Shown: piece after piece, positions 4,845 to 51,893 of the stretch
Layout: each line of letters opens with the position of its first letter
Position numbering within the stretch: the first letter of the stretch is position 1
Origin: Acrasis kona
Taxonomy: Eukaryota; Heterolobosea; Eutetramitea; Acrasida; Acrasidae
Direction of reading: 5' to 3'
DNA: 51,893 nucleotides
Assembly: GCA_026419775.2 (NCBI GenBank)
Contig: JAOPGA020000562.1
Coordinates: 1 to 51,893, forward strand
Position numbers and translations under genes: made by a program
Notes under the pieces: model-generated
The model's database searches: none
What the model was told of the DNA's origin: nothing
The model's input: only the letters and a program-made list of their open reading frames with translations

Positions 4845-4964
4845 AGAGTAGATGTAACAGCAATCATAATGATTTTTCTGCTACAAAAGTATTACACTCA
4901 CGACAAGTATATTAAATTAAAGCATTTCAAAAACTAAACAATCTCATTTATACAGTTGCAAATA

Positions 4965-5354: not shown

Positions 5355-5630
5355 CTATACAATCTGTTTGTAGCTACTAATAAAGTGAAATAAATTGTTC
5401 AAAACATCTTGCGGAGTGGATCCCTCCCCATCCGGCAGTCAACCAGTACTAAGCGGAGACCGAGAGTTAAATATGTCCGTTCAAATTATAACGAACACTG
5501 TTGTACAATAGTGTGTATCATGCTAAAAATTAATTGTAATTCCTAGCTAACGATCATATTGTATAAATACATGTCTCCATCTGTTGTAGAAGTATCGGTT
5601 GCAAGTTAACTTTTACAAAACAAAAGGAAT

Positions 5631-6571
5631 ATGGAGATGACATTACCTCGAACCGTTCCTTCTGGTAATGTAAGAAAGGGACGCGGAATTATTAGACAAT
5701 ATATAAAGAAGCTCAAAAGAACTCCAGCGAGAACAAGATATATTGCTGTCGGTATAGTTTCGGCAGTTATCCTACTATACTTGTTTGTTTTCCGCTCTAG
5801 CGATACTCCGAATACCGCAACAAAACTTGGAGTACCTTCAGATGCGCCAGTATCAAAAATAATAAGCTCCGAAGTCAAAGAAAACCAAAACGCTCTTTTG
5901 GCGGTTGCCGATGATAAGGATAATCACTTCGACCCATTCAAAAACGTTCAAATCATTTCGTGGGAACCAAGAGTTTTCGTCTACAAAAACTTTTTGTCAT
6001 CCTCCGAGTGCCAATACCTTATTGATTGTGGAAAGGATCACTTGAGCAGATCTCAAGTTGTTGGACAGGATAAATCTGAAGTTGTAGAGGCGAGGTCCTC
6101 TTTTGGAGCATCTCTAACAAGAGAACAAACAAGGGCTATCGACCAACGTATATCTGCAGTTACTCATTTCCCAATTGAAGTAAGATTACAACGATTCTAT
6201 AATTAACCACAAACCAGAATGGTGAACATTTATACTTGCTAAGATATGGATCAGACCAAGAGTACAAACCTCACTATGATTGGTTTGCAGATGATTTGGG
6301 TAAAGAATGGAAGGACATGTTGGAAAGGAGTGGTCAAAGGTATGCCACCATGATCATTTACTTGTCGGATGTTGAAGAAGGAGGAGAAACTACTTTCCCA
6401 AACATTAACAAGGCCATCAAACCAGAAAAAGGAGATGCCTTGCTGTTCTATGACATGAAGCCTACATGTGAAGTAGATCACCTCACCCTACACGGAGGAG
6501 AAAAAGTCAAGAAAGGTGAAAAATGGATTGTAACAAAATGGATACATCAAAAGAAGTACACTGATGCATAA
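5631..6571 (+). CDS. Prolyl 4-hydroxylase-like 2-oxoglutarate/Fe(II) dioxygenase, membrane-anchored
   Basis: Two exons, 5631-6179 and 6218-6571, join across a 38-base GT-AG intron to give 300 residues; the join reads FPIE-NGEHLYLLRYG, restoring the conserved core strand. Residues 37-54 form one hydrophobic membrane anchor after a basic N-terminus, suggesting a type II protein of the ER or Golgi. The catalytic domain has Fe ligands His202 and Asp204 (HYDWF) and His275, with Lys285 (GEKW) to bind 2-oxoglutarate. A VEEGGETTFP segment is typical of the alpha-subunit P4H family. Such enzymes hydroxylate proline in secreted proteins. A substrate candidate in this window is the Pro-rich secreted protein at 12305, but that link is only suggestive. 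The stop is 13 bases from the convergent MUS81 stop. Confidence 0.9.
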
Positions 6572-6584
6572 AATGATTTTATTG

Positions 6585-18300: not shown

Positions 18301-18631
18301 TATAGTTGGATCGCTCAATATGGATCCATGTAATCGTAATGTCTTGACGTTGATGAGAAGAGGAGTGACAGATAGCTTACAACTATTTAGAATTAATATG
18401 AATGACTTTACAATGATGAATGCTGATCCAATTACAGTGAATACATCTACTTTGGAGTTGAAGGAGGGACAAGAGTTTAATACGTTCATCTCTGGTAATA
18501 CCATCATGATTTCCAATTATGCTGGAAGAGTGACTGCTGTATGTTTAAGTAGTGGTAGCATCTACTCTAATGGAGTTTTAAGAGAAAGCCAAATCGCACC
18601 AGTCGCTGGAAGTTCAGTGTGTGGCTTTTAA
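12305..18631 (+). CDS. Giant secreted Asn/Pro/Gly/Asp-rich repeat protein with C-terminal domain
   Basis: One open frame of 2,108 residues. Residues 1-22 are a signal peptide (basic start, hydrophobic core ending at an Ala-Gln). Residues about 50-1750 are low complexity. The first third is Asn/Gly/Asp-rich with RPGNN and RPPSST units. The middle is dominated by TRPPRPTNRPG and TRPPSSTPRPGG units. A more acidic stretch with NPPSTT and NNEGG follows, then RPPRPTN units return. A Gly-rich hinge (GIGVNTGLGVGIG) leads to about 340 residues of ordinary composition with several cysteines and short beta-strand-like repeats, possibly a beta-propeller. The architecture resembles a cell-surface or cyst-wall mucin or extensin: dense Thr/Ser beside Pro suggests O-glycosylation, and Pro may be hydroxylated. 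No named family is recognised. A TAAATAAA stop/polyadenylation signal ends the gene. Confidence 0.85.
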   Translation: MKIKNMIKSFIIALCLIALIYAQISDQYGENNSNRDNSNIAFRAENDDDRMNRPSGNSGSNNNNRPSGNSNSNNNNRPSSSNNSGSNNRPSNNNNNGGGSRPDSNDDRDRPNNNGGSNSRPSNNNSNNDRPGSSGGNSRPSDNDRPSSGGSNRPDNNNGNNRPSNNDGSNRPSGNSNDRPGNNNSNDNRPNNNNNSQGSSRPNNSGSNNNNNDGAGSNGGGSRPDNNNGGSGSNRPNDSNRPDNNNRPPSSTQRPGNNNNGGSNRPGDDDDNNRPGNNNRPPSSTNRPGDNNNNGNNRPGNNNNDNRPGNNDDNDRPGSNNNNRPPSTTRPPSSTNRPGNNSNDNRPGGSDNDRPGNNNNGNNGNNNNNNNNRPPSSTQRPGNNNNGGSSRPDNNNGGNGSNRPGDNDDNNRPGGNNNNRPPSSTNRPGGNDNNGNNGNRPGDDDDNRPGNNGNNRPPSSTRPPSSTNRPGDDNGNNRPGNNDNNGGSNRPGDDDNRPGNNNNNGNNRPPSNNNPSGGNNNNNGNRPGDDDNRPGNNGNNRPPSSTNRPGDNNNNGNNRPPSSTNRPGNNNNGNRPGDDDNDRPGNNNGNNRPPSSTPRPGGNNNNGNRPGDNDDDNRPGNNGNNRPPSSTRPPSSTNRPGDNNNNGNNRPPSSTNRPGGDNNDRPDRPGNNNNNGNNGNTRPPSTRPPSSTPRPSGNNGNTRPPSNTRPPSSTRPPSSTPRPGNNDNNNGNTRPPRPTNRPGGDDDDNNTRPPSSTPRPGGNNGNTRPPRPTNRPGDDNGDDNNTRPPSSTPRPGGNNENTRPPRPTNRPGDNDDNTRPPSSTPRPGGNNGNTRPPSTTRPPRPTNRPGGNNNNNTRPPSTTRPPSSTPRPGGNDNENTRPPSTTRPPRPTNRPGDNDDNDNNTRPPRPTNRPGDDNDDNNSTRPPSSTPRPGNDNNNENTRPPRPTNRPGNNNTRPPSSTRPPRPTNRPGGNDDNNNNPRPPSSTPRPGGNNENTRPPSNTRPPSSTRPPRPTNRPGDNDNNTRPPSSTRPPRPTNRPGDNDDNNNNTRPPSSTRPPRPTNSPGNTRPPRPTNRPGGNDNNTRPPSNTRPPRPTNSPGDNGDNNNTRPPSNTRPPSSTPRPGGNTRPPSTTRPPRPTNRPGGNNNNTRPPSNTRPPSNTRPPSNTRPPSSTPRPGGNNGNTRPPRPTNAPGNTRPPRPTNQPGDNDDNENTNPPSSTPRPGGDGEDNDDGNNTGITRPPSSTNPPGDNNDDDNNPPSDTTPPTPTNSPGDNDDNENTNPPSSTPRPGGNNGNTRPPRPTNAPGNTRPPRPTNRPGGNNNGNTRPPSNTRPPRPTNQPGNTRPPRPTNRPGGNNNGNTRPPSTNPPSTTNSPGMDNNPGDDNNNNGSDNEGNNNEGTNPPSTTQPPDMNNDNNNNEGGNNDYTNPPSNTQQPGMDNNNNDGNGSDDNMNSPPVNTNPPNDNDNNNEGGNNDETNPPQPTNPPVSTNQPVDDNQNTNPPMTNPPSPTNPDDNNDNGNTNPPSTRPPVPTNRPGSNNGNTRPPRPTNRPGGNNGNTRPPIGTRPPRPTNAPGGNNGNTRPPRPTNRPGDNNGNTRPPRPTNAPGNTRPPRPTNPGNNGDTRPPRPTNQPGDNNNGNTRPPVITRPPRPTRPTNRPGNTRPPRPTNAPGYTRPPRPTNPGGNNENTRPPRPTNAPGDNNNNGENQTTYPPVSDGGDYTNAPGTQQPTINPTNPPLPTRPNHPYPNHHHNNDDHWGLGIGVNTGLGVGIGIGQNTNTFTCSSGTGLFYRFDKTSNIVSIIDSSARLINTHVLPFLPNSCLVLYQTLAVSCGVNSATNSGVCATINLSSGLVVHSILVPHGSRVHHVHRNIIYVGSYNAHEQTCYSRYHLHTLRQKRGHVCMSGRANIVGVLKSSNTLVVTSPAITGYQLMDANTLLQRPSIVGTTGVPVRIEGDMMISMESNQLSRFVISKDWMVTSKSHLTIGTASDMRLDSRGVGVGSGCIVGSLNMDPCNRNVLTLMRRGVTDSLQLFRINMNDFTMMNADPITVNTSTLELKEGQEFNTFISGNTIMISNYAGRVTAVCLSSGSIYSNGVLRESQIAPVAGSSVCGF
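12460..17550 (+). repeat. Degenerate tandem coding repeat (Asn/Pro/Gly units)
   Basis: About 5 kb of imperfect short repeats inside the giant secreted protein. Unit types change along the array: AAC/AAT-rich Asn runs with GGxxACAACAAC patterns at the 5' side, then units coding RPPSST, then RPPRPTN, then NPPST. The repeats use several synonymous codons, so units have diverged in DNA while keeping the protein. Because the repeats rarely form stop codons, other frames also stay open for more than 1,000 codons; these are not genes. Confidence 0.9.
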
Positions 18632-20804: not shown

Positions 20805-23800
20805 ATGCCACCTGCACAACCGCTGGATGGAGGTAAGAACTTGGACGACAGACAAAACTGGGTTGAATCTCAGATTCGATCAGCGTTCAAGATTGTAGAT
20901 AAGGAGTTGAAGAAACTCACAGACTCAGACGACTATAGGTATGATCATTACTTTCAAGACTATTTGACTGTTTAATAGAAATGTTGTCAAAACCTTTATG
21001 GAGCAACCGGACCAGCGAACATTGTTTGTTTACTTCGGAAGTGGTGGACTAACATGCAGTCCTACTCCTCCCGCTACCTTCACCAAGAAGGGTCTATATT
21101 TTTTGAAGAATAAAAAGACAAAAGTTACTCCCGAGAACATTATAGAAACAGTTACGTTCGGAGATTTAACAAATCAACCATTGGAAAGTTTGAAACAAGT
21201 GTGCGATGAATTTTTCTTGCCACTGATAACACACGGCTCTAACGAAAATGTTGATAAAGAGGTCGTTAGCTCATTTGACAAATACCTTCAAACCATGTAT
21301 GTAACTATTGGACAAACAGAGGGTAAGACACTATTGCCCCTTCCAAGTGAGAGTACGGACCAGAGCGAAGAAGTAGATAAAGATACTGTTCATGCACTAG
21401 AAACCTCCGTTGTCACTTGGACAAATCAAATCAAAGACGTCCTAAAGAATGGACCCGACAAACTCTCTTCTCCAGGACAATATCCAGGTCCGTTGGATGA
21501 AATTGATTTCTGGGATAGCAAGTACAACAATTTGCAGTCAATCTCCAATCAACTAGGGAGTGAAAACGTTAGGAGAGTGGTCGAGATTTTGAAAAAGTCT
21601 CAAAGCACATACATTGATTCCTTCTTGAAAATGATTGAAGAGGTCACAAACAAGACAGAAGAAGCCAGGAGCAATCACACTGCATTGAAGCCACTGGCAC
21701 AATACTTCCGCCAAATCAAATATGACAGCACAGAAAGAGTAGAATTTTCACAACTCACAGACACGTTCAAGAAAATATTCTCCTTGATTTACATTGTGTG
21801 GATCAAATCGGCACACTACAACACACCAGAGCGCATCCTGGTTCTAGTAAGAGAAATTTGTAACGACCTCATCGAACACGCCTCAGGGTACATTGGAGGT
21901 AAAGAAATTTTCAACATGGAGCCACCGGAAAGTATAGACATTTTGGACAATGCATTAACCATTTGTGGTCATTTGAAGAAATACTATTTCCTCTATAAAC
22001 AACGCGTAGCCGAAGAGAAGCACAAGAATCAATGGAGGATACAACCCAATGCACTCTTCCATCGACTAGACATTTTCTTGGAAAGAAGTCGTGACATTTT
22101 GGAGTTGGTTCAATTGAGCGTCATGTTTACAAAATTAACCAGCATTCAGATAGGAGGTACGAAGGGTGCCATCCTCTCTGCTGAAATCCAAGAGATCAAC
22201 AAGACGTTCATGACCGACTATCAATACTTTAAAGAAATTGAATACGACGTGTTGAATGTGGAAGATAAGAGGTTCGACGAAACCTTTTATCAATTCAAGA
22301 GCCTAGTCAAGGAATTGGAACGTAAAGTGGCATCCATTCTTATCAGAGCCTTTGATGATTGCAGTACCATCGAATCATCATTCAAAGTGATTGAGAGCTT
22401 CGCACCGTTATTAACGCGCGATAGCATCCAACAAGAAGTCGAGAAGAAGCAAATTGACTTGTTGAGTCAATACAAGAGCGATTTGAAGAAGGTGCAATCG
22501 GAGTTCAACTCTTTAAAGAGTCAACCGCCCATGGGATCCAATTTACCACCTACTGCTGGTGCCTTGTTGTGGGTGAAGGGTCTTCTTGAGAGAATTTCGA
22601 CTCCCATTCAAAAATTCCAAGAAATTAATCAGAAACTACTACAGATGCCACAAGGAGCTCAAGTACTAACGCAATACAACAATACGGTACAAATGCTTCG
22701 TGAGTATCAACGACAACAATACCAAATGTGGGCTGTTGACGTAGGAAGCGTATCGCAAGAAAAACTTCATCAATTCCTACTCAAGAGAAAGGAGAATGGA
22801 TTGCTCATTGTTAATTTCGATCCAGCACTCGTTCGTTTGCTAAGAGAAGTGAACTACATGGAGAAATTGAACGAAAATAATAATCAAGACGAAATGTTGG
22901 TGATACCCGAAGAAGCACTCGCCATCTTCTCCAAAGCAGAAATGTACAGGACACAAACTGGTGGTTTGGAAATCATAGTTAGCACTTATAACAAAATCAT
23001 GGAGGGTCTTTTACCAGTCGAAAAGCCCTTGTTACAGCGTAAATTAGACGTCATTGATGCTCTACTACAGAGGGGCATTACAGAGTTGGATTGGATGAGT
23101 CAGAGCGTCGAAGAATTCATCAACTCTTCCATGACGCTCGTGAGCGAGAGTAACGCCACTTTAGAAACGCTCGATAAGAATGTAGATAGCATCGAGAACA
23201 TTTTGAAAAAGTGGGAGAGAAATCCATTATTCGAGCGCAAAGAACAACGCACGCTCACATTGAAGGAGTTCGATGGTCGTTACAGAGAATTAAAGAATTT
23301 GTGCGAGAGCATGATTCGTAAGGGAAGCGAAACCATTCACAAGAAAATGACCGAAAGTTTCCAATCGCTACATGGAGAGGTAGATAAGAGCAGCGAAGCG
23401 TGGCAAAAATACGTTTCTCATGTCCAAAGCATTGTTCAGAATGGAATTGCAAAATGTATTGCATTAAGCATTCAAGCACTACGCGATCAATTGGATGCAA
23501 ATTTCCTACACAAGAACGAATTGAATCCATTGATCGAAGTAAGCTTAAAGTTGGAAAATCAAAACGAATCAAAGTTCCAAGCTGCATTCAGTCCCAGAAT
23601 CGATTCCATCAAGTCATCAAAACCATCTGCCAATTCATCAACCTCCAATCAAAATGAATCATTGGTCAGCATCGTAAACAACTGGATCGATGATTTTTAT
23701 AGCATTGCCACCTTTGTGCCACGATTGGATGGCGAACAAGGTAGTTATATCGAAGATATGAAAAAGAGAAAAGAAATTAAAGATTTGGTAAAGAGCGTTA

Positions 23801-26800
23801 ATGATTTGATGCACAATAACTCTGATGTTTGCATTCAATATCGTAACCAATTCGTTGCATTCTCTTACTTGTGGGATAAGGACCGCACAAAAACATTTGA
23901 TGATTTCTTGGGTCTCAACAATAAAGCAGCGGACGATCCAAGCGTCATCATCAATACTCCGCTACTCTCTTTTGACGAGCAAATCGAGTATTATAAAAAA
24001 GTGGCCATACAAATTAACGAACTACCCAATAGCGATAACGTAGGTTGGTTAAAGGTTGATTCGCGTCCCATCAAGAATGAATTGATTCGTTTGTGCGATG
24101 CTTGGAAGAGCATGTACACTAGTTATCTTACCAATCAAGTCACCGCTACATTAAACGATACTTGGTCCTTCATGGAGAGCGTAGATAACGGAATAGCGGT
24201 CACCGTCGAACCAGGTGACGTTGATAGTTTGAAGAGAGTACTTGCCTTCATCAAGGACATGAGATTACGTCACGGAACCACTGTAGGAGGTGTTTCACAA
24301 ACCAATACAGAAGAAGGAGGCGCCGTCAATAACACAAATAACGCTCCAAACAAACTAAACAAATTCGAACAAATGCAAGATATCGTTCAATTGTTGGCCA
24401 AGCACGATGTACAACTAGCAGAGAACTTTCAAAAGAATTTGGATCATGGACCAGAAATGTGGAACGTATTATACGCCAAAACACTCACCAAGAGAGAAGA
24501 ACTATCTCCATTACAAGATGCTGAGGCCATGAAGATGAAAACACAAATGTTGAGTTTCCTAGACCACGTTCAATTGTTCAATCGTAATTTCAGCGACATG
24601 GATGCATTCCAGTGGAAATCAGGCGTCAAGAAGGCTTATGCAGCGCTCGATATTTGGCAAAAGAGATTATCCGATATGGAAAAGGAAGCCGTTCATTTCC
24701 GCTTATTACAACAATTGTTCGAATTATCTCCCATGGAATTCAAACAATTGAAAACATGTAGAGAAGAAATCATCATGTTAAAGACCCTATGGGACATGTC
24801 ATCTCACGTATTAGCGTTATTTGCCGATTGGATGAAAACGTCGTTCAAGAGAGTGGACGTCGATACGCTAGTCGAAGAAACAAAGTTATTAAAGAAGATT
24901 ATCGGAGCATTCAACGCCAATATGAAGGCATGGGATAGTTACACTGGATTATTCAATACGGTAAACAACATGTTGACTTCATTACCCTTGGTTCAAGATT
25001 TGAGAAGTCCAGCCATGAGAACTCGCCATTGGGACCAATTGTTGGAAGAAACGCACAAGAAGGGAACTGCTGATCCTGAGGACGATAGTTTCTCATTGGA
25101 GCAATTGTTGGCACTAGGTCTTCACAACTACGTTGATGTGGTGAGAGGAATTGTCGACAAGGCAAGTAAAGAATTAGGTATCGAAAGCAATTTATCAAAA
25201 ATTGAAAACACTTGGGAGAATCTAGTGTTTAGATTCAAAGACCATGATGAATTACAGTGCGTCATTTTAGATACCGTAGAAGATATCATTGAAGTGCTGG
25301 AAGATAATTTGGTCAAGTTACAAAATATGAGCAGCATGAGATACATTGAACACTTTATCGAGCGATTGACCAAATGGCAGAGCACATTGGCCACCGTAGA
25401 GAGCGTTACTTCGTTATGGATCGAAGTACAAAAGACATGGGCCAATCTATATCCCATTTTCGTATTATCGGAGGATATCCGTCAACAACTACCAGAAGAT
25501 TCTCGTAGATTCGAAGGTGCTGATAAACGATGGAGGGCCATGATGAACGTTGCAAAGAACGTTACCAAAGTAACAGAGGCATGTACCGAAGATACCATCA
25601 AGAATAAATTGGATACCAGCGAGGGCATGAACGAAATGTTAACGAGCATGATGGAGGATTTGGAAAAGTGTCAAAAGAGTTTGGCGGATTACTTGGAAAC
25701 AAAGAGAAGAGCATTCCCAAGATTCTACTTTGTTGCTCCAAAGGATCTGGTCGATATCTTATCAAAGGGTTCGTTCCCTAAACAAGTCATGAGACACATG
25801 AGCAAATTGGTAGAAGCCATCAATACCTTATCGTTCGAAGAGGACAGCAACGTGGCACTCAACATGATTTCACAAGAAGAGGAAGTCGTTGAATTCACAA
25901 ATGCTTACGAATGTAAAGGAGCAGTGGAGAATTGGTTGAATGGATTATTGGATACCATTCGCAACACTCTACAAACGATTCTAGTTGATGCACATACGGC
26001 ATATGTAGAACAAAGTAGAGATCAATGGTTGTTCTTGTTCCCTGCACAAATCGTAGTGAGCGCATCCAGAGTATGGTTCACCGCTGAAGTTAACGCTGCA
26101 TTCGAAAGACAAGAAGAAGGAAACAAGAATGCACTAAAGGATTACTTCAAGGTGTGTATCGACCAATTGGGTAAATTAACTCAATTGGTACAAGGTAAAT
26201 TGACATCAGGTGATCGTAAAAAGATTATCACTCTGATTACCGTCGATGTTCACAATCGTGATATCGTCGGTAAGCTCATGGAAGAAAAGGCAGAAAACGC
26301 CGCGGTGTTCACTTGGCAATCTCAATTGCGTTACATGCTAGATGAAACCAAAGGATGCACCATTCAAATTGCCGATGCAGAATTCACATACAATTACGAG
26401 TACGTAGGTAATTGTGGTTGCTTGGTCATCACACCGCTCACCGATCGTTGTTACATTACCTTGACTCAATCTCTTCGTTTGAACATGGGAGGCGCACCAG
26501 CAGGTCCAGCAGGAACTGGTAAAACAGAAACCACGAAAGATTTGGGAAGAGCATTAGGTACTGCAGTTTACGTGTTCAACTGTACCGAACAAATGGACTA
26601 CATGTCTTTGGGTAATATCTTCAAGGGATTGGCAATGACTGGTGCTTGGGGATGCTTCGATGAATTCAATCGTATTCGTATTGGAGTGTTGAGTGTCGTC
26701 GCTACTCAATTCAAATCTATTATCGATGCCATCAAAGCCAAAAAGGACGAATTCGAATTCCAACACGAAATCATCACTTTGAAACGTACTTGTGGTGTGT

Positions 26801-29800
26801 TTATTACGATGAATCCAGGTTACAAGGGTCGTACCGAACTACCAGAAAATCTTAAAGCTCTTTTCCGTCCTTGCGCCATGATCGTTCCTGATTTGATGAA
26901 CATTTGCGAAATCATGTTAGCTGCAGAAGGTTTCCAAGACGCAAAAGCATTAGCTAAGAAATTCGTGACCTTGTATCAACTCAATAGAGAATTGCTCAGT
27001 AAACAAGACCATTACGATTGGGGTCTACGTGCAATCAAATCAGTATTGGTCATCGCAGGTAGTTTAAAGAGAGCAGAAGACGTGAGCGAAGAAAAGATTT
27101 TGATGAGAGCTCTTCGCGACACTAATCTTGCAAAACTATCCAGAGATGACGTTGAAATCTTCAAACGTCTCATTAGCGATTTGTTCCCTCGATTAGAAAT
27201 ACAAACAAAGAAGGATCCAGATCTAGAGAAGGCTCTTAAACAAGCTACTCATGATTTGCACTTACAAACTGGTGAGAATGATATTTTCATCGATAAGGTA
27301 GTACAGTTCAAAGAATTATTGGACGTGCGTCACTCCGTGTTTGTGTTGGGACCTGCTGGTAGTGGAAAGAGTTGCGTATGGAAGGTCTTGTCACAGGCGT
27401 TCCAACTCATGGACAAGAAGACTCAATATCAAGTCATGGATCCAAAAGCAGTAACCAGCTTTGAGTTGTATGGTTACATGCATCCAGTGACACGTGACTG
27501 GAAGGATGGATTGTTGAGTAACTTTATGAGAGAATTCTCAAAGAGTGCTAACAAGAATCCAAAGTGGTTGATTCTTGATGGAGATATCGACGCAGAGTGG
27601 ATTGAATCCATGAACACGGTGATGGACGATAACAAGGTGTTGACCTTGGCAAGTAACGAACGTATTCCGCTCACTCCGACCATGAGAATGATTTTCGAAA
27701 TTTCACACTTGAAGAACGCAACGCCAGCTACGGTCAGTAGAGCCGGTATTCTGTTCTTGAACGAAACAGATATTGGATGGGGACCTTTCAAGGAGAGTTG
27801 GATCGAAACAAGAGAGGACGATCGCGAGAAGCAAACGCTAGAGCGCTTGTTCGAAAAGTACGCAGGTCCCATTCTAGAGTGGATCCGCGAAAAGAACATC
27901 AAGCACATTATACCAGTATCTGCAATCAATATGATTCAATCATTATGTTACATTTTGGAAGGATTATTGAACGCAGAAACATGTGCACCAGGTAGCGCAA
28001 ACGACATTTATGAACACTACTTTGTATTTGCATGCGTGTGGGCATTTGGTGGAGCATTACAACCTGAAGAAAGACAAGCTTTTAACACATTCTTCAAAAA
28101 GACGTTCACTACTGTTAAATTCCCAGAGAATAACCAATCGACTGTCAACTGGACCGTCTTTGATCACTACGTCATGCCAGAAGGCAACAAATTGGGTCAC
28201 TGGCAAGAACTCGTTCCACAATACGTTTATGAAAGCGAAGTGCCATTCGGTGAGATCGTGGTCAACACTGTAGATACAGTTCGTACCAGTTTCGTCATGA
28301 ACTTGTTGAGCAACAACAGAAAACCAGTTTTATTGGTTGGAACTGCAGGTACAGGAAAAACAACCATCGTCAAGGAAAAACTAAACAAGTTGGATGAGGA
28401 AACCATTTACATGACCATCAACTTTAACAGTAACACCGATTCATTATCTCTACAAGAAATTTTGGAACAAAAGTTAGAAAAGAAAGCAGGTACCCGTATG
28501 GGACCACCTGGTAGAAAGAGTTTGATTTACTTTATTGATGATTTGAACATGCCCAATCCAGATAAGTATGGAACGCAGAGCGCTATCGCCTTGTTGCGTC
28601 AACACATGGATTATGGATATTGGTTCGATCGTGCCAAGATGACATCGAGACCAGTCAGTAATGTACAATACTTGGCTGCCATGAATCCAAAAGCAGGTAG
28701 CTTCACAGTAGACGATCGTTTCCAGAGACACTTTACCACTTTATGCTGCAGTTATCCATCTCCTTCGGATTTGACCATCATCTACAGCAGCATCATCAAT
28801 GGTCACTTGTCAAACTTTGCAAAGAATATTAGAGAAATGGGAAATCGATTGGTGATGGCCACCATCGAATTGCATAGCAAAGTCAGTAAGGAATTCTTAC
28901 CTACTGCAGTAAAGTTCCATTATCAATTCAACCTTCGTGAGATTTCCAACATCTTCCAAGGATTGTGCTTATCATCACCTGGACTATACAAGGAACCAAT
29001 TGATTTGATCAAATTGTGGCTGCACGAGAGCTACAGAGTATTCGCCGATCGTATGATGGTAGAAGAAGATGTACAAAAATTCAACGGCATCATTGCTGCT
29101 GTTGGTAAGGCCAAATTTGAATTGGACCAAAACAATGCCGAAGTGTTAAACACTGCTCATCAATTACTGTTCACGAGCTTCCAGCAATCCACTGCACAAA
29201 ATGAACCCATTTATGGCTTGGTAGCTGATTTTGCGGAACTACGTACCTTGTTACAAAAGAAATTAGAAGAATACAATAACGACAATGCAGCCATGAATTT
29301 GGAGTTGTTCCAACAGGCCGTTCAACACGTTTGTCGCATCAGTAGAATTCTGTTCAATCCAAGAGGAAACGCTCTATTGGTTGGTGTCGGAGGTAGCGGT
29401 AAACAAAGTTTAGCTCGCTTAGCTAGTTTCATCAACAATTACGAAATTGCACAAATCACTGTGACGAGTAGCTACAGCATTGTTGACTTTAAGGCCTACC
29501 TCATCAATCTATACAAGAGAGCTGGTCTAAAGGGACAAGATTTTACGTTCATTCTCACTGATTCTCAAATCGTGGACGAAAAGATGTTGGTGTATGTCAA
29601 CGACATGTTATCTAGCGGATACATTCCAGAATTGTTCCCAGATGACGAAAAACAAAATGTAATCGGAAGTATCCAAAACGAAGTCAAGTCACAAGGAAAG
29701 GACACTAGCGCTGATGGCTGCTGGTCGTATTTCTTGGAAAAGGTCAGAAGCAAACTACACGTCGTATTATGTTTCAGTCCGGTAGGAGAACAATTCCGTA

Positions 29801-32800
29801 CTTGGTGTCGTAAATTCCCTGCAGTGATCAATTGTACAGTAATTGATTGGTTCCATGCATGGCCAAGCGAAGCATTGAATTTTACCGTAGCCACCCGCTT
29901 CTTGAACGGAACTGAATTGGGTGGAGAAGAAATGACGTTACAGATTGCAGAGCACATGGCGTTCGTACACGACACTGTCACACAGGCATGTGTAGAATAC
30001 AAACAAATAGAACGTCGTCACAATTACACCACACCCAAGAGTTTCCTAGAACTCATTTCCATTTACAAACTATTGCTCGGCAAGAAGAGAGAAGAACTTA
30101 ACGAAAAGATTGAGCGCTTAAACTCTGGATTGACCAAATTGAGAAGCAGTAGTGCCAAAGTAAAGGACTTGCAAATTACCTTAAAGGACGAACAAGTTAT
30201 CGTGGAGGAAAAGAAGATTGCAACGGAGGAGTTGGTAAAGAAGGTTGGTAAGGAAAGAAACATTGTAGAACAACAATCTGCAGTAGCAACCGAAGAAGAA
30301 CGAAAGACTAATCTTGCCGTACAAGATGTCGAGAATTTCAAAGCTGAATGTAGAAGAGATTTGGACGCAGCTGAGCCCATCGTGCAAGAAGCCATCAAGG
30401 CACTAGATACGCTCAAGAAATCAGACTTGCAAGAATTAAAGAGTTTCACGCAACCTTCGGAAGATGTTGCTCATGTATGTAACGCAGTGATCTACTTGAC
30501 TTCCACAAAGGGCATACCACGTAATCCAACATGGAACGATGCCAAGAAGATGATGGCCAATCCATCTCAATTCTTGGACGATCTAAAGACCTTTGATAAG
30601 GAGAACATTCCACAGGCCAATATCGACGCAGTGAAGCCCTTCTTGGACGTCAACAAGTATCCAAACTTTAACATGGATGCCATCGAGAGTAAATCTCACG
30701 CAGCAGCTGGTTTGTGCGGTTGGGTCATCAACATTTGTAAATTCGATGCCATCAACAAAACGGTCGAACCAAAGAGACAAAGTTTGAAATTGGCACAAGA
30801 GAAATTAGATGCATCCAAAGCAAGTCTCAAAAAGATTCAAGATAAGGTCAAGGAGCTCAAAAACAAATTGGATCAACTCATGGAAGAATACGAAAAGGCA
30901 AATTTGGAAAAATTAATGAACGAAGAAAGAGCCAAAAAGACTCAAGACAAGTTGAATCTTGCAGAGCGTCTGGTGAATGGATTGGCAGATGAGAACGTGC
31001 GTTGGGCCAATTCCATCGAAAGTCTAAAGATTAGAGATCAAACGCTAGTGGGAGATGTACTGCTGGCTGCTGCCTTCTTGAGTTACGTCGGTGCTTTCAC
31101 TAAACAATATCGCAAGGGAATGTTGGACGAGAAGTGGTTACCCGATTTAAAGATTAGAAAGATTCCTACTACGGAGGGCATCGATCCCCTATATGGCGTA
31201 TTGACGGAAGAAGCTCAAGTTGCACAATGGAACAACGAAGGATTACCTAGCGATCGCGTCAGTATCGAAAACGGAGCCATCGTCACCAACTGTTCAAGAT
31301 GGCCACTCATGATCGATCCTCAATTACAAGCAATCAAATGGATCAAGAATAGAGAATCAAAAAATAATTTACAAATTATTCAATTAAATCAAAAGAAGTA
31401 CCTAGACACAATCGAGAATGCCATTTACAATGGTTTTCCAGTCATTATCGAGAACATTGGAGAGAATATCGATTCGGTGCTCGATCCTCTTTTATCTCGT
31501 AGTTTTACAAAGAGAAATCGTACTACGTTTATTAAATTGGGAGAAAAGGAAGTGGAATACGACGAGCGATTTAAATTATACTTGCAAACAAAGTTGAGCA
31601 ATCCACATTACAGACCAGAAATCGTCGCACAGACTACTCTGTTGAATTTCATCGTTACTGATCAGGGATTAGAGGATCAATTGCTAGTCACCACCGTCAA
31701 TTAAAGAAAGACCAGATTTGGAGGTACTAAGAGCTAGTTATCTCAAGCAAATGAGACAATTCAAAATCGAACTCAAAGAATGCGAAGATAACTTGTTGTT
31801 CGAATTGAGTAATGCAAAGGGAGATATCCTTGAGAACAAGAAGCTAATCGAGAATCTAGAAATGACCAAAGCAAAGAGCAAACAAATTACGCTAAGCGTC
31901 GCTGAAATTGAAGAAAACAACAAGAAGATTGATGCCAGTCGTCAAGTTTATAGACCAGTCAGCGTTCGTGGAAGCATGTTGTACTTTTTGATCGATCAAC
32001 TCAGTAACTTGGATCACATGTACCAATACTCATTGGAAGCATTCATGGTCGTGTTTAACAAGGCATTGGATAAAGCAAAACCAGCAGATTCTGTCGATGA
32101 AAGAGTGGTGAATATCGAAGATAGCATCACCGAAACTCTATTTAGTTACGTGAGCAGAGGATTGTTCGAACGTCACAAATTAATCTTCAGTACCATGTTA
32201 TGTTTCGGAGTACTCAAGAAACAAAACGACATTGACGTGCAACAATTGGAATTCTTGTTGCGTGGACCCAAGTACTTTGGCGAAGAACGTCCAGAGACTG
32301 TAGCTGGTTGGTGCAGCGAAGCGAGTTGGGCAGCCGTCAAGGCACTTACCGAAATTGAAGGAACCACACCAGCGTTTAGTACATTACCAGCAGATATGGC
32401 TGGCTCGTGGCGTCGTTGGAAGGAATGGTGTGAGTTCGAAAAACCAGAAGAGAAACCATTACCGCTAGAGTGGAAGAATTTGGAGCCATTCCAAAAACTA
32501 CTCATCATTAGGTGCTTGAGACCCGATCGTTTGACGTGGAGCGTTACCAACTTTGTAGGTAGTAAGATTGGAACCAAATATGTAGTTCAGGCACCTATGG
32601 ATTTGGCAGCTAGTTATGTAGATGCTGGTCCAACCACGCCCATCTTCTTTATTCTATCACCTGGTGTTGATCCAGTCAAGAGCGTTGAGAGTTTGGGAGA
32701 GACATTAGGATTCACCGAAGCCGCCGGTAAATTGAAGAACGTGTCGCTCGGTCAAGGACAAGAACCCATCGCTGAGGAAGGACTAGAAATGGCGTTCCGT

Positions 32801-34627
32801 AATGGAGGTTGGGTCATTTTGAACAACTTGCACTTGACGCCAGAGTGGTTGATTACTCTGGAAAAGAAGTTGGATCACTACGCCGAAGTATTCGCTAGAC
32901 AACGCATGGCTGCTCAAAAGAAGAAGGAAGAGTTGGTTGCCGCTGCTGCACTCACCAACCAATCAGATAAGGAAGAAGGAGAATCACAAGAGGAATCATC
33001 TGCATCCGAAGATCAACTTCAACAAGAGCCCTCTGAACCAACACCAGCTGCAGCTGTAGTCGAACCAGTAGCAAACGATCAAGACGACGAAGACGATGAT
33101 CAAGACGATAAGGGTCATCCAGATTTCAGAGTCTTTTTATCAGCCGAACCATCTCCAAAGATTCCACTCGGTGTGCTACAGAGGAGCATCAAACTAACGA
33201 ACGAACCTCCAAGCGGTCTACGCGCCAATCTGTTACGTGCCTTTATGCAATTCAACGACACCGTATGGGAGAGCAGCACCAAACAAACTGAATTCAAGGG
33301 TATCTTATTCAGTTTATGTTTCTTCCATGCAGTTATTGTAGAACGTAAGAAATTCGGACCTCAGGGATGGAACAGAAACTATCCATTTAGTTTGGGAGAC
33401 TTGACAACATGTATTGCCGTGTTGAATAACTATTTGGAAGATCGTCCCAAAGTGCCATGGGAAGATTTACGTTATGTATTCGGTGAGATTATGTACGGAG
33501 GACACATTACTGATGATTGGGATCGTCGGTTATGTAGTACTTACTTTGCAGAGTACATTAGGGCAGAGGTGGTGGAGACTATACAACTATGTCCTGGATT
33601 CCAATCGCCACCCACTAATTTGACCTATCAGGGTTATTTGGAGTACATTGAGACTCAATTACCGAGCGAATCTCCAACTGCATTTGGTTTGCACCCTAAC
33701 GCTGAAATTGGTTTCCGTACTGCACAGGGAGAAAACTTGTTCCGCATGATCGTAGAGATGCAACCAAGAAGTGGAGGAGGTGGAGAGGGCATGAGTGCTA
33801 CGGAGAAGGTAGCGCAGGAGATTGCCAACATTATGGATCGATTGCCAGAGCAATACAACTTGGTAGATATTGTGGAGAAGTTGGATGCAGGTGACGAACG
33901 CACACCATTCCAAAACAGTTTCTATCAAGAGTGTGAATACATGAATCGATTGTTGGTGGAGATTGATCGTAGCTTGAGAGAATTGAAGAGTGGATTGGAT
34001 GGAGAGTTGACCATCAGCGATAAGATGCAGAACCTCATGGATGCCTTGTACTCTAACAAAGTACCAGAGACATGGACAGCAGTTGCTTATCCATCACTAA
34101 GACCTCTCGACATGTGGGTCACCAACTTGTTGGAGAGATGCGCACAGTTAACTGCTTGGACACAAGATTTGAATCAACCCAAAGTGGTGTGGCTGAGTGG
34201 TTTGTTCAACCCTCAAAGTTTCTTGACTGCTATCATGCAGAGCACTGCAAGAAAGATGCAGTGGCCGTTGGATAAAATGACATTGGTTGCTGAGGTCACC
34301 AAGAAGATGAGACCTGAAGAGATTGATGTAGGTGCACGTGAGGGAGCATACGTATCTGGTTTCTTCTTGGAGGGCGCCACTTGGGACGAGAAGAAGAATA
34401 GCTTGGTGGAAAGTAAATTGAAGGAGTTGTATCCAAAGATGCCAATCATCCACATCAAGGCTATGCAGGTGGAGAAGAGCGATCCAAAGAGCTTCTATGA
34501 TTGTCCGGTGTACAAGATTCAAGATCGTGGACCAGATTATGTCTTCTGTTGCAAACTCAAGACAAAGGATCCACCAAGCAAATGGATATTGGGTGGTGTG
34601 TCCATGCTGTTGGATGTTGTAGAGTAA
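20805..34627 (+). CDS. Axonemal outer-arm-type dynein heavy chain, with one +1 frame change
   Basis: Exon 1 (20805-20938) and exon 2 (from 20979) are joined by a 40-base intron, reading DDYR-NVVKTFMEQ. The protein would be about 4,593 residues, normal for an axonemal heavy chain. Family parts appear in order: N-terminal tail, linker, AAA1 P-loop GPAGTGKTET (near residue 1,890), AAA2 GPAGSGKS (about 2,170), AAA3 GTAGTGKTT (about 2,500), AAA4 GVGGSGKQS (about 2,850), the coiled-coil stalk with microtubule-binding domain (about 3,080-3,390), AAA5/AAA6 and the C-terminal domain. The N-terminus and P-loop set fit the outer-arm beta group (DNAH9/11/17-like). The frame breaks at 31702, where skipping one T gives the conserved KERPDLE. 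AAA6 carries an acidic insertion at about 32,920-33,115. It powers flagellar beating. The gene ends in TAAATAAA. Confidence 0.9.
31699..31705 (+). other. Frame change at a UAA codon in the dynein gene
   Basis: The first frame ends AAT TAA at 31699-31704. Moving forward one base (AAT, skip T, AAA GAA AGA CCA) continues with the conserved KERPDLE segment and stays open for 974 more codons. No GT-AG intron restores this frame: the only nearby candidates are 11-20 bases long and give the wrong frame. The cause is either a one-base insertion (sequencing or real) or +1 ribosomal frameshifting. Confidence 0.8.
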
Positions 34628-46161: not shown

Positions 46162-49100
46162 TTATTTTTGATATTCATATTGGAACAACTCGAGTGCCTT
46201 CTTGGTGCTGATTTGCTTAAAGTTTGGCATCCTGTTGAATTCGCTCTTCGTCATGTTGAACAACTTGACAAACTCTGCATCGCTCAAATACTGCTCTCTC
46301 TTTTGAGTGTCGATGCCTGGTGGATACTTGGCTCCATTCTTCAACTGTGCATATGAATAAGTGGTGGCGTTGGATGATGATGACTGTTGTGGTTGATCGT
46401 CGACGACGGCACCAAACTCAGCCTTGACCCTACCAGTGGTATCAATCAAACTGCTCAACTTGGCCTGAATCAATCCACCCTTGCTACCCTTGAGCGTTTG
46501 GAACAATTTCAAATCCTCCTCTTCTTGTTTGGTAGGGATGCTGTATTTGCTCTTGGCAGCCACTTTGAATTTTTTCTCTCCAGTGGATGGCTTTGGTGCT
46601 GCAGTGGAGGTGGCGACCTTTGCACCACGCTTGGCAGCTGCTTCCTTATCTCTCCTCTCTTGTTGTTGTAGATAAGATCCATACACAATGTCGGTGCTAC
46701 GATTTCCGCTAATACCCCAACGCGTCTGTTCGTTGAATCTGAATCCAACAAATGTCTTGTAGGGAACGACGAATTTGAAATTTTTGACCTTTGCCAAATT
46801 ATCTTCCAAACTCTTCTTCAAATCTCTGATTTGATTGGCGGTGGCATTTGGATTCGATGCCAACCAATCCAACACGCTCTGTGCGTAATCGTCCACTGCT
46901 TGTTGCTCCTTGTCGGTCATGGCCTTTCTGACGGCTTGGTTGTTGTTCAACACATCCAATACCTTCTTGGCATAGTCCAACAGATTGTTCCTCTCGTCCT
47001 TGCTCTCCAACACTGCGTTCACCGTATTCTCCAGTGCCTTCTTCTTTTCCTTGATTTGATTCAGTTTGGCATCAGGTGTCCTCTTGACCCAATCGATGGT
47101 CTCGTTGGCACGATTGTCGATCAATTTCTTATCATCCGCATTCAACAGGGATGCTAGTTGTGGATCGGTGCTGACCTTTTCTCTAATGTTGCTCGCGTAA
47201 TTGATCAGATCGCTCCTCTCCTTGCTACGATCCAACGATGGCTGCACTTGTGCCTGTACTTGACTCTTTTTATCGTCGTAATCCCTCTTGTTGACATCTG
47301 GGTGCGCCTTTAACCATTGCTTGGCGCCGTCCAATGCATCGCTCAATTTCTTGCTCTCCTGTGGATCCATTTCTGCTTTGCTCAACGATTGTTTGCTGTC
47401 GGATATGTACTTGTCCAGTGCTTGTTTGCTGTCTGCCTTTTGTACCAACGGCATCACGCTCTTGTCAAAATCTTGAATGCGATTCTGCAATTGATCTGCA
47501 TCTGCTTGTTTGTGTGATGGACCGTTGATCCAATCTTGTTGTTTCTGCACTTGATCGACGATTTGGTTGAATTGCTTGGGCGTCAATTGTTTGTGGAGTG
47601 CATCGTTCTTGTCATTGACGCGATCCACCAAGTGATTCACCTTGTCGTGTAATTCTTGATCACGTTGTGCCCTGTTGATCACGTGATCCACTTGGTTCTT
47701 TAATTGCGATAATTTATCGCGAGCATCATTTGCATCGGCACCCTTGTTGAATTGTTTGGCTTGTTCCAGTGCCTTGTTCACCTTGACTTGATCCATTGGA
47801 GAAATCCTGTTGGATAGTTGCTTTAATTTGTCGGCGGTTTGATCGATGTAATCATCGAGCGCTTGATGAGCGCGTGCCTTTTCCAAAATGTTACGCGATG
47901 CTGCTTCTAATGCATCCTTCTTTTGTTTCAAATCTTTGGTGGATTTGTTCTTGTTGCGATTCAAGTAATCGACGGTCTCGTCGATCATGTCCTGCAGAAT
48001 GTTCTTGTCTTGATGAGAAATGTGCTTGGCCAATCGATCGTTGCGTAGTGCATTGCGTAATTGGTTGCATTGAGATGTTAATTGATCTCGTTGATCGGCA
48101 CGATTGGCGATGGGATCAGTTTTTGATTTGCTGTGGCGCAATTGTTTATCCAATTCTCTCGCATCTGCATTGGGATTATCGTTCAACCAGTCCTTGATGT
48201 GACGTGCATGATCTGATAATAATCTACGCTCATCGCTGGTCAAATCGCTGCCGCCGCCGCTGCCTTCTTGACCCTTTTGTTGTAGAGAATCAGCCAGTTG
48301 CAGTAAATCCTTCTTCTTGAGCGATTGATCCATGATGGGTCTCACCTTGTTCTTGAGTTGATTCAATTGTTGATCCAATTGTTGTTTGTCTGCGCGTGGA
48401 TTGGCTCGTGACCACTTGTTGCTCTCCTCGCATGCGTTCTTGATTAGCGATTGATCGGATGGCGACAAGTGATGATCGTCGTTGTTGATGGATCGATTCG
48501 CGTTATCGATATAATCATGTAATGCATTCCTGGCATCCAATCTGGATAGAATGGGATCCACCGCCTTTTGTAATTCTGCATCTTGTTGAGCAATTTGGTC
48601 CATGGGCGTTTGTTTGCCAATGTTGTTCTTGACATAGTCGCGTGCCTTTTGAATGGCCTTGTTGATGGTTTCGCGTTCTTGTGGAGTGGTCACCTTTGAC
48701 GAATCGGATAGATTTACGTCACGATCCAATCGACGCTTCAACTGATCTGCTGCATTCTCCAACTTGTTTAATTTTTGACTCCTCTCCAGAATGGGCGCGA
48801 TGCGTTTATCGAGTGCGTTCATCTCTGCAATGGTGTCCTTGGATGGCAAGTGCTTCTTCAAGAATTCTTTGGATGGCTCCAATGCTTCCTTGATTTGCTT
48901 CTTTTCAGCATCGCTCAATCGCGTATCCACCGCCATCTTGTCCATGATGTCGTTCACTTTATTCTCTAATTCTCTTCTATTCTTGGCTGCTTCGTGTGAT
49001 GGTTGTACCTTGTTCTTTAATTGATTACGTTGTTGTTCCACTTGATCAGCGGTGGCTGCCTTGTTGTTTTGTAACCAATCCTTTGATTGTTTGCATGCCT

Positions 49101-51893
49101 CTTCAACAATCTTTGATTCTTGTGGCGAATAATAATCATTCAAATCCTTGTATTGATTCGCGTCGTTCAACAATTGTTCCACCTTGTTCACCTTGTCCAT
49201 GATGGGCTTGATGGATTGTTCCAGTTCATCACGACGTTGTTTGATTTGTTGTTTGTTGGCTGATGGATTGTTGCCGAGCCAATCCTTGACCGATTGTGCT
49301 GCCTTGTTGATTCGATCGGCCTCTTGTGCAGTGATCCGATCGTTGGCCAACAATCTCGGCACCAAATCCTTGCTCAGCGCCTCTGCCGTTTGGTTCAATG
49401 CATCGCGTGCCTCTCCATCGGAAATGATGGGCAGCGTCAATGCATTCAATTGATCCAGTTCGCCGGTGATTTGTTTTGCCTTTGAATTTGGATTCTTTTG
49501 TATCCATGATAGGGTCTCATCGACGGCATCATCCACCACCTTCTTTTCCTTTTGAGTCAATCTCTCCAATAATTGTGGATCGTTGCGCAATCGACTACGC
49601 AAATCATGAGCGCGTTGATCCAATTCTTGAATGGCCTTTGCATTGTGAACAAATTCTTTTGATTTGTTTTCCAATTCATGAATCTTGTCCAACACTTGTT
49701 GACTTGCTAACTGTAATTGCTCTGGCGGCGGTACGTGCTTGTAGGTTGGTAATTTGTTCATGAAGGCTTCGCCCTGATCCACCAACGATTGCAACACCTT
49801 TTTATCTTGATCATTCATTACGTCTTGCGACGATAATTCTTTGCGAATTTGTTCAATCTTTTGCGACAATTTCCTCTTGTTCTTTGCTAATTGTAGCAAT
49901 GGTTGGGTGTTATTGTCCAATTCCTTCTTGATTTGATCGCACGTGGACAAATCAGGATGAGATTGAATCTGATCGAGAGCACGTTGAGCAGCATCTCTAA
50001 TGTGCTCGCGTTCCTCTGGCGATAATTCGAACAAATCATCATCCTGATCATCCACTCTCTTTTTAATGTGATGAGCGTATCCATCCAATTGATTCCTCTC
50101 CAATGCACGATTGATGATTTTATCGATTTGATCTTGTAATTTTCTTCTTTGTGCTTCGATTTGATCGCTGGTGGCATCTGGATGGTCCTTCAACCATTGA
50201 TTGAATTCGTCCACTGCCGCCTTGATTTGATCCTTCTCTTGTGCATTCAAGTGCTTGTAGAGCGGATCGTCTGGGTGATTGTACATTTTATTGATCAAAT
50301 CATCAACGTATTGCTTGGCGTCTTGTCTAGCGTTGGCACTGGCCAATACTTGTTGAACGGCACGATCCAATTCGCGATTCTTCTTGTCCAAATCGGTCTT
50401 GTTCTTTTTGCAATAGGCCAATACTTGTTGTGCTTCGTCATCGATAATCTTCTTTTCCTTTGCAGTGCACTTGTTGGCCAATTTACCACCATTGATGGCA
50501 TCGCGTAGCGATTGGGCCTTGTTTTGTAATTCCAAGTGTTTGGAGTGATTGTTGAGCACGCCGTTCACCTTGTCTTGATATTCCTTGTCCTTGTCTCTGA
50601 CTTGTTTGCTTGTTGCCTTGTTGCCATTTGATTTTTGGAACCAATCCAATGTTTCTTGTGCAGCGTCGTTCAAAATCTTTTTTTCTTGTGGAGTCAACGT
50701 GCTGAGCGATGGATCCTTTTGTAGACGATCGCGCAATTCTTGTGCCCTCTGGTACAAATCTCTTCTTGATTGTGCATTGGCGATCAATGGATCCACAATC
50801 GCTCTCGATGCCTTGTTCAAATCATCCGTCTCTGATTTGGTTAGATTTGGCTTGTTGATCAATTCGTCAAGAATGTGATCGGATGCATCCTTGATTTGTT
50901 TCTTTTCCATATCGGTGAGCCACTTGCCTAGTGCCTGTGGATCGCGTGCATCCAAGTGATCCCTCAATTCTCTTGCAAAGTCATCCAATTTGGATTTGGC
51001 ATCGGCTCTGTCCACAATGTCGCCCGCAGTCTTGTTGAGCGATTTCAATTTATCTTGTACTTGTTGATGCGTCGCGTTCTTGTTCTTGTTGGTCCAATCC
51101 AGCGTCTCCAGGATGGCCTCGTCCACCAATCCACGCTCATCGGGTCTCATCTTGCTGATTAATTTCTTATCGGTCATGGAGCGATCTCTTAATTTGTTGA
51201 CTCGCTGGTCCAATTCATCCTTCGCTTGTGCCAATGATGTCAGCGGCGTCACGTTCTTCAAGAATTGATCATGACGATCGTTTAATTGTTGAGTGGTTGC
51301 GTCGGGATGATCCTGCAAGAATTGAGTGACCTTATCGGCTTGATCCAACAGCGCTTGTTTCTCTTCGGGCGATAAGTGTTTGGAGAGCGCATCGTTGGGA
51401 TCGTGCACTCGTTTCCTTAATTGATTGGCTGCCTTGGTCAGTTCGTCCCTCTTCTCTGCACGATCCACCACCGGCTGCACCGTCTTTTTCAATTTGTTTA
51501 ATTGTTCCTTGAGTTGATCCTCCGTGACGAGCGGATGATCCTTCAAGTGATCCAATGCGTTCTTGGTTGCTTCGTTGATGAGATCGACATCTTGGTCGTT
51601 CAACAAATCACAAAAATCATCATCTTCGTCGTCCATGCGCTTCTTGATTTGATGAGCGTATTGCTCCAATTGATTCCTCTCGCTCGCACGCGATAGGATG
51701 GGACGAATGCGTGCATCCAATTCTCTTCTCTTTAGATCCAATTCTTCTTGTGATGCATTGGGATTCTTGGCCAACCAATCCTCAAATTCACGAATGGCAT
51801 CCAATACTTGCTTGCGCTCAGCATCATTCAAATTGGCGAATTGATCGCTGAAGGGATCGGCAATCTCCTTGTACTCATCTAGTGCCTTTTGTA
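46162..51893 (-). CDS. Giant tandem Hsp70-lid-like repeat protein with C-terminal villin headpiece, 5' end missing
   Basis: The frame is open to the right edge, so the N-terminus lies outside; at least 1,909 residues are visible. About 23 tandem units of some 70-80 residues each follow the pattern RNxLxxYAxxI, Lx2EK, a helix ending in WL, a short NPNAT-like loop, then a helix ending in VxPIL. This order, including RNQLEQYA and DWLxxNPNA, closely resembles the helical lid of Hsp70 C-termini. There is no ATPase or beta-sandwich segment between units. After the last unit come a strand-like segment (PYKTFVGFRFNEQTRWG), a basic Ala/Lys linker, and a villin headpiece: YPPGID, YLSDAEFVKLFNMTKSEF, MPNFKQ and a terminal LF. 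The headpiece binds F-actin in its family. I infer a cytoplasmic, elongated, actin-linked scaffold. The pairing of these modules is unfamiliar to me. Confidence 0.85.
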   Translation of the reverse strand, partial: QKALDEYKEIADPFSDQFANLNDAERKQVLDAIREFEDWLAKNPNASQEELDLKRRELDARIRPILSRASERNQLEQYAHQIKKRMDDEDDDFCDLLNDQDVDLINEATKNALDHLKDHPLVTEDQLKEQLNKLKKTVQPVVDRAEKRDELTKAANQLRKRVHDPNDALSKHLSPEEKQALLDQADKVTQFLQDHPDATTQQLNDRHDQFLKNVTPLTSLAQAKDELDQRVNKLRDRSMTDKKLISKMRPDERGLVDEAILETLDWTNKNKNATHQQVQDKLKSLNKTAGDIVDRADAKSKLDDFARELRDHLDARDPQALGKWLTDMEKKQIKDASDHILDELINKPNLTKSETDDLNKASRAIVDPLIANAQSRRDLYQRAQELRDRLQKDPSLSTLTPQEKKILNDAAQETLDWFQKSNGNKATSKQVRDKDKEYQDKVNGVLNNHSKHLELQNKAQSLRDAINGGKLANKCTAKEKKIIDDEAQQVLAYCKKNKTDLDKKNRELDRAVQQVLASANARQDAKQYVDDLINKMYNHPDDPLYKHLNAQEKDQIKAAVDEFNQWLKDHPDATSDQIEAQRRKLQDQIDKIINRALERNQLDGYAHHIKKRVDDQDDDLFELSPEEREHIRDAAQRALDQIQSHPDLSTCDQIKKELDNNTQPLLQLAKNKRKLSQKIEQIRKELSSQDVMNDQDKKVLQSLVDQGEAFMNKLPTYKHVPPPEQLQLASQQVLDKIHELENKSKEFVHNAKAIQELDQRAHDLRSRLRNDPQLLERLTQKEKKVVDDAVDETLSWIQKNPNSKAKQITGELDQLNALTLPIISDGEARDALNQTAEALSKDLVPRLLANDRITAQEADRINKAAQSVKDWLGNNPSANKQQIKQRRDELEQSIKPIMDKVNKVEQLLNDANQYKDLNDYYSPQESKIVEEACKQSKDWLQNNKAATADQVEQQRNQLKNKVQPSHEAAKNRRELENKVNDIMDKMAVDTRLSDAEKKQIKEALEPSKEFLKKHLPSKDTIAEMNALDKRIAPILERSQKLNKLENAADQLKRRLDRDVNLSDSSKVTTPQERETINKAIQKARDYVKNNIGKQTPMDQIAQQDAELQKAVDPILSRLDARNALHDYIDNANRSINNDDHHLSPSDQSLIKNACEESNKWSRANPRADKQQLDQQLNQLKNKVRPIMDQSLKKKDLLQLADSLQQKGQEGSGGGSDLTSDERRLLSDHARHIKDWLNDNPNADARELDKQLRHSKSKTDPIANRADQRDQLTSQCNQLRNALRNDRLAKHISHQDKNILQDMIDETVDYLNRNKNKSTKDLKQKKDALEAASRNILEKARAHQALDDYIDQTADKLKQLSNRISPMDQVKVNKALEQAKQFNKGADANDARDKLSQLKNQVDHVINRAQRDQELHDKVNHLVDRVNDKNDALHKQLTPKQFNQIVDQVQKQQDWINGPSHKQADADQLQNRIQDFDKSVMPLVQKADSKQALDKYISDSKQSLSKAEMDPQESKKLSDALDGAKQWLKAHPDVNKRDYDDKKSQVQAQVQPSLDRSKERSDLINYASNIREKVSTDPQLASLLNADDKKLIDNRANETIDWVKRTPDAKLNQIKEKKKALENTVNAVLESKDERNNLLDYAKKVLDVLNNNQAVRKAMTDKEQQAVDDYAQSVLDWLASNPNATANQIRDLKKSLEDNLAKVKNFKFVVPYKTFVGFRFNEQTRWGISGNRSTDIVYGSYLQQQERRDKEAAAKRGAKVATSTAAPKPSTGEKKFKVAAKSKYSIPTKQEEEDLKLFQTLKGSKGGLIQAKLSSLIDTTGRVKAEFGAVVDDQPQQSSSSNATTYSYAQLKNGAKYPPGIDTQKREQYLSDAEFVKLFNMTKSEFNRMPNFKQISTKKALELFQYEYQK
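46165..46365 (-). other. Villin headpiece domain region
   Basis: The last 65 or so residues of the repeat protein. The conserved core is LSDAEFVKLFNMTKSEFNRM, followed by NFKQ, TKK and a terminal ELF, matching the three-helix headpiece. The YPPG-D segment just before it fits the N-terminal subdomain. The residue usually Trp in the PxWKQ motif is Phe here. Confidence 0.85.
46785..51893 (-). repeat. Tandem Hsp70-lid-like coding repeats, about 23 units
   Basis: Roughly 5.1 kb of about 220-base coding units. DNA identity between neighbours is low, so the array is old, but protein anchor residues recur at the same spacing. Some units are shorter or have lost the NPNAT loop (for example the unit with ADANDARDKLSQ). 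A pair of adjacent units near the 5' edge reappears about seven units later with much higher similarity, which indicates block duplication. Confidence 0.85.

Follow-up and report, generated by a model that had tools for sequence, protein, structure and literature searches.

A tandem array of 23 units homologous to the Hsp70 lid in an armadillo and villin headpiece protein of Acrasis kona

The stretch of DNA analyzed here, referred to as the window, comprises positions 1 to 51,893 (51,893 nucleotides) of contig JAOPGA020000562.1 from Acrasis kona (GenBank assembly GCA_026419775.2). At its right end, on the minus strand, it carries the 3′ part of a gene for a protein in which 23 back-to-back units homologous to the C-terminal lid of Hsp70 are placed between an armadillo head and a villin headpiece. 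The homology is confirmed by reciprocal sequence comparisons and also by predicted structure. For the array as a whole we favour the role of a rod or ruler over that of a multi-client chaperone.

Number, spacing and motifs of the units

An earlier reading of the window, made from its letters alone and called the original prediction below, had counted “about 23” units. With a hidden Markov model (HMM) of the unit, which was seeded from ten units of the orthologue P0002 (see below) and then iterated, the number became exactly 23, with unit starts 68 to 82 residues apart and a median spacing of 75 residues. The array occupies positions 46789 to 51891 (minus strand), and unit 1 begins approximately four residues beyond the window edge, on the contig C126. 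None of 200 shuffles of the array gave a match at E<1, and no unit was found in the reversed protein. The units are quite different from each other, with a mean identity of 27% and a maximum of 47%. A higher-order block duplication, as might be suspected from a likeness between units 2 and 9, was considered and rejected, since no unit offset stands out in either protein (largest z 1.68).

Taken over 62 units of five proteins, the majority residues of the motifs are Leu in column 4 (89%), Trp in column 43 (63%), Pro in column 48 (61%), Ala in column 50 (66%) and Pro in column 68 (66%), while the Tyr in column 7 is present in only 47%. The motifs listed in the original prediction thus hold as majority residues but not as fixed ones, and among the 29 units of alignment A2 there is no invariant column.

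Homology of the units to the Hsp70 lid

When a profile made from the family units alone was compared with all PDB sequences, 16 distinct Hsp70 sequences ranked first with E-values from 5.5e-13 to 2e-8, and the match spans nearly the whole unit. In the reverse test a profile of the Hsp70 lids encoded in the same genome gave the protein a score of 212 bits with 20 of the 23 units positive and nothing in the reversed sequence, a control that is not fully independent since the unit HMM itself had set the borders of the lids, of which three out of five are near-identical. A phmmer match to BiP was obtained with an E-value of 2.6e-5. In six-frame translations of the window and the collected loci, only these arrays and Hsp70 lids were matched at E up to 1; there the unit HMM matched six of the eight Hsp70 loci (L001 to L008, with L002 and L008 unmatched), and among six Hsp70s of the genome tested against it L002 gave no match and L004 a partial match only. 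NCBIfam returned no family for P0001, P0002 or P0003.

Other helical-bundle families were looked for in the same comparisons. The unit profile matches 57 PDB sequences at E up to 10, none of them a spectrin or a talin, and neither family appears in the best 50 rows of either list of similar folds, an absence that is no proof; two vinculin rows have E-values of 2.1 and 2.8. On these comparisons spectrin, talin and other bundle families were rejected. It is hardly conceivable that the units are ordinary charged three-helix bundles resembling the lid by chance and composition, as the forward and reverse profile comparisons are consistent along almost the full length of the unit, the shuffled and reversed controls are empty, and spectrin and talin are missing from the matched sequences.

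The AlphaFold model of units 2 to 4 (51004 to 51678, minus strand) has a pLDDT of 93.8 and contains the helix B-C-D fold of the lid. Its best lid matches superpose at 1.3 Å over 78 residues (7n6g_6K) and at 1.4 Å over 81 residues (3lof_A), the latter with a target TM of 0.84. The original prediction had suggested this comparison of three units, and had named a better match to spectrin or talin and a failure to superpose on the lid as outcomes that would speak against it; neither was observed, and its identification of the units as Hsp70 lids is borne out by the profiles as well as by the predicted structure. In the model, helix D of one unit is also helix B of the next, forming a single helix of approximately 40 residues (model helices 53-92 and 129-169). 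Judging from these continuous inter-unit helices the array is likely to be elongated and rod-like, in agreement with the long scaffold that the original prediction had in mind.

The armadillo head and the missing parts of Hsp70

Within the window the gene is seen as a single open reading frame (ORF) of 1909 stop-free codons at 46162 to 51891 (minus strand), open at the window edge, where contig C264 ends and the gene is truncated. A protein search of the same genome found contig C126, which starts with 725 bases repeating the last 725 bases of the window with one mismatch. After joining, the gene model encodes 2596 residues and has two 44-base introns. Exon 1 (2872-2869 on C126) is four bases long (ATGG) and was picked by eye since it offers an ATG with a good splice donor; the first one or two residues are thus uncertain. 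Exon 2 lies at 2824-2345 and exon 3 starts at 2300 and continues in the window from 51893 to 46162, with the stop codon at 46162-46164. Read from the sequence, the layout is an armadillo head, an acidic stretch, a Glu/Arg-rich segment, the 23 lid units, a linker and the headpiece.

The armadillo repeats upstream of the array score 125.2 bits with Pfam Arm (cut-off 20.6), and four stretches pass the cut-off singly. This head is absent from the original prediction because it lies beyond the contig end. The segment between the repeats and unit 1 is acidic at first and then has approximately 88 residues in which Glu makes up 28% and Arg 18%. The whole head is 40% identical over 522 residues to the armadillo part of the relative P0003, with which exon 2 (about 160 residues) aligns as well.

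The original prediction had stated that the lid was multiplied without the ATPase and the substrate-binding beta domain, and had proposed to extend the locus in search of an attached Hsp70 ATPase. The ATPase was sought on C126, and armadillo repeats and the charged segment were found there instead. Pfam HSP70, covering the ATPase and the beta domain, was reported neither for the window part of the protein nor for the upstream ORF, in a scan that left out exon 2; VHP is the sole Pfam family above cut-off in the window part, and the upstream ORF has armadillo-type families only. The EEVD motif is absent from the 2596-residue model, and the proximal part of the lid was not found, each unit corresponding to the distal three helices only (about residues 537-610 of human Hsp70).

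The contig end that cuts the gene, and the overlap with its one mismatch that was needed for the join, might suggest that the head and the array were wrongly joined from different genes or that repeats were collapsed or expanded. Such an assembly artefact is scarcely credible, as P0002, whose contig comes from other sources, encodes armadillo repeats, 23 units and a headpiece within a single frame, the armadillo repeats are linked to the first three units within C126 alone, and a collapse is unlikely among units as dissimilar as these.

The linker and the villin headpiece

The array is followed by a linker (46291 to 46788, minus strand) with the motifs RWG...YGSYLQQ and KSKYS...EDLKLF, which are common to the orthologues, and with no confident fold. 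In the model of units 22-23, linker and headpiece the pLDDT is 60, and the linker is mostly below 50. The linker is partly common to a paralogue on contig C213 (38% identity over 130 residues). By eye, a short charged headpiece protein (L018, on contig C721) has two RWG...GSFL motifs resembling the RWG...YGSYL of the linker.

The headpiece that the original prediction had placed at the C-terminus is recognized as the Pfam family VHP (PF02209; 46183 to 46290, minus strand) with 51.1 and 56.5 bits, the former against a cut-off of 27. The F-actin-binding residues of headpieces are reported to be the cap W64, the charged crown K65/K71, and F76 (PMC2879411). An alignment with solved headpieces shows that our protein retains the Lys positions as well as the Leu-Phe pair. 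Two features make actin binding by the tail less certain: all three long relatives have Phe in place of the cap Trp of the solved headpieces, and in all three six residues (46165 to 46182, minus strand, in our protein) run past the usual terminal Phe. In view of the exchanged cap residue and the extended C-terminus we grade F-actin binding by the headpiece, as judged from its sequence, as plausible or likely rather than certain. Of four other headpieces read in the genome, those of L013, L015 and L017 have Trp and that of L018 has Phe. Two headpiece matches in the genome, C194:1764-1871 and C237:172958-173065, both score 59.1 bits in frames that are both 961 long, and represent either a duplicated gene or a redundant assembly.

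Relatives and conservation

One protein-database search found P0002 and P0003, another P0002 alone, and a third P0003 itself and the fragment P0004; in the first and the last, scoring was confined to those candidates with the most words in common (8000 and 7999), and further relatives may have been missed. P0002 (2465 residues) is a co-linear orthologue without the first approximately 180 residues of our model. P0003 has armadillo repeats and lid units but no headpiece was seen; its frame nearly fills a contig of 3549 bases, and its end is possibly lost. In the same genome the C213 paralogue (L014/L020) consists of armadillo repeats, lid units, linker and a stop codon, and a headpiece was not found on that contig. 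By HMM the units number 23 in this protein, 23 in P0002, 7 in P0003, 3 in the C213 paralogue and 6 in P0004. Finally, L013 on contig C785 has armadillo repeats and a headpiece with no lid units in the frame between them; compared with our protein it is 25% identical over 390 residues of the armadillo head and 35% over 106 residues of the C-terminal segment. Across the family the number of units is thus 0, 3, 7 or 23, and L013 and the C213 paralogue may possibly be evolutionary intermediates. No relative was confirmed in viral contigs (queries P0002 and P0003) or in prokaryote genomes (query A1), in scans that used a few short exact patterns and are blind to distant relatives.

Compared with P0002, this protein shows 82% identity in the armadillo part (311 residues) and 64% in the linker with headpiece (210 residues). 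In the unit columns the identity is 38% where orthologous positions are paired and 24% for non-matching units. Sixteen of the 23 units have their best match at the same index in P0002. Identity is highest for units 1, 22 and 23 (62, 54 and 72%) and ranges from 18 to 47% in the remaining twenty.

A proposed spacer role for the array

We consider it fairly probable that the protein is a cytoskeletal linker whose two ends are the functional parts, with the array between them serving as a rod or ruler. The preference for this role rests on the ends being 82% and 64% identical between orthologues, against 38% for the lids, with 23 units in both. A spacer would be expected to have ends that are conserved, middle units that drift in sequence while their number stays equal, and helices running on from unit to unit. 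An ancestral armadillo-headpiece protein, suggested by the presence of the lid-free relative L013 in the same genome, may have gained one inserted lid subdomain that was later amplified, presumably because the long helix B of Hsp70 permits fusion from head to tail. The array would then be a spacer, either rigid or extensible and roughly 70 nm long (estimated at about 3 nm per unit), which fixes the distance between a cargo-binding armadillo head and a tail that binds actin. The head would bind a partner and the headpiece F-actin, the middle units would supply length, and the array could perhaps give way under load; no chaperone cycle would be expected. Whether the amplified chaperone lid became both a ruler and an unfolding spring, reaching from actin to the cargo bound by the armadillo repeats, in what would be a new class of repeat protein, appears to us evenly poised.

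A related explanation is that of a force buffer, in which the lids unfold singly under load and refold and thereby limit the tension on actin instead of defining a length. Tandem independent three-helix bundles with continuous linking helices are a known arrangement of the spectrin type, and 23 units would make a long reserve, but the same number of units in two species suits a ruler equally well, and we find the molecular spring in itself rather unlikely.

Still less likely, and in our view improbable, is a multivalent chaperone scaffold in which the lids continue to bind protein, so that unfolded clients, Hsp70s or co-chaperones are held along actin, much as the original prediction had suggested. 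In its favour, the units are genuinely related to the Hsp70 lid, avidity would result from their many copies, and the somewhat higher identity at orthologous positions (38% versus 24%) implies that the units are not fully interchangeable. However, the units contain no more than the distal three helices, neither the proximal lid nor the beta domain was found, there is no EEVD motif, and no other part of the protein is conserved as poorly as the array, its units diverging fast (38% against 82% for the armadillo part); the suggestion of many clients is therefore not sustained.

Comparison with known systems

The units are most closely related to the Hsp70 C-terminal lid (PDB 2lmg, 3lof and 2p32; BiP 5e84 and 5e86), which they resemble in sequence profile (5.5e-13) and predicted fold, but Hsp70 does not have the 23 tandem copies seen here, and its ATPase, beta domain, proximal lid and EEVD were not found in our protein. 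Spectrin-type rods (spectrin, dystrophin and alpha-actinin) are likewise built from tandem three-helix bundles with continuous joining helices, in our case predicted, and likewise lie between a binding head and an actin-binding end, as is presumed here. The spectrin repeat has a period of about 106 residues, whereas the unit period is 75 in the array, whose profile finds Hsp70 and no spectrin; the shared continuous helix between bundles is an analogy of design and not a sign of membership. Ebh, Embp and other FIVAR/DUF1542 proteins are bacterial surface proteins with long rods of tandem three-helix bundles; they give weak Pfam and fold matches to the units, while the unit sequence profile lists none of them. 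Villin, supervillin and dematin have a C-terminal VHP in common with our protein, which differs in having no gelsolin repeats reported, Phe in place of the cap Trp and the six-residue extension. Among armadillo proteins the nearest are L013 and the C213 paralogue.

No description of a lid amplified in tandem into a rod was found in searches for this layout, which covered open-licence papers. The lid, the armadillo repeats and the headpiece are each known, and what is presented here is a probable rod of helical bundles whose source is new. The protein suggests that part of the regulatory machinery of Hsp70, one of the best-conserved chaperones, can leave it and be multiplied into a long array of repeats, by which a rod of the spectrin type would have arisen along a second route; if true, the rod would bear load and have originated independently of spectrin. 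With 23 units in two species, and units differing at about 60% of positions, the array also offers a clean test of selection on its length. As a warning for annotation, P0002 is labelled “molecular chaperone DnaK (HSP70)” in one source, yet no Hsp70 ATPase or substrate-binding beta domain was found in it.

Neighbouring genes and other frames in the window

On C126 (L019), the frame at 3001-6213 (minus strand) adjoins the 5′ end of the gene and presumably encodes a proton-translocating transhydrogenase, judged by eye; the frame at 6452-7930 (plus strand), also near the 5′ end, resembles by eye an FtsZ with an N-terminal extension, perhaps a mitochondrial FtsZ.

In the window, a frame of 2108 residues at 12305-18631 (plus strand) is rich in Asn, Pro, Thr and Gly repeats. 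Long mirror frames are found there on both strands, such as one of 822 residues at 13438-15906 (minus strand), and are probably a by-product of the repeats. Two adjoining long frames of 3568 and 969 residues at 20998-34627 (plus strand), which by eye resemble a dynein heavy chain and as such would point to a flagellated organism, are probably split by a short intron near 31704-31718.
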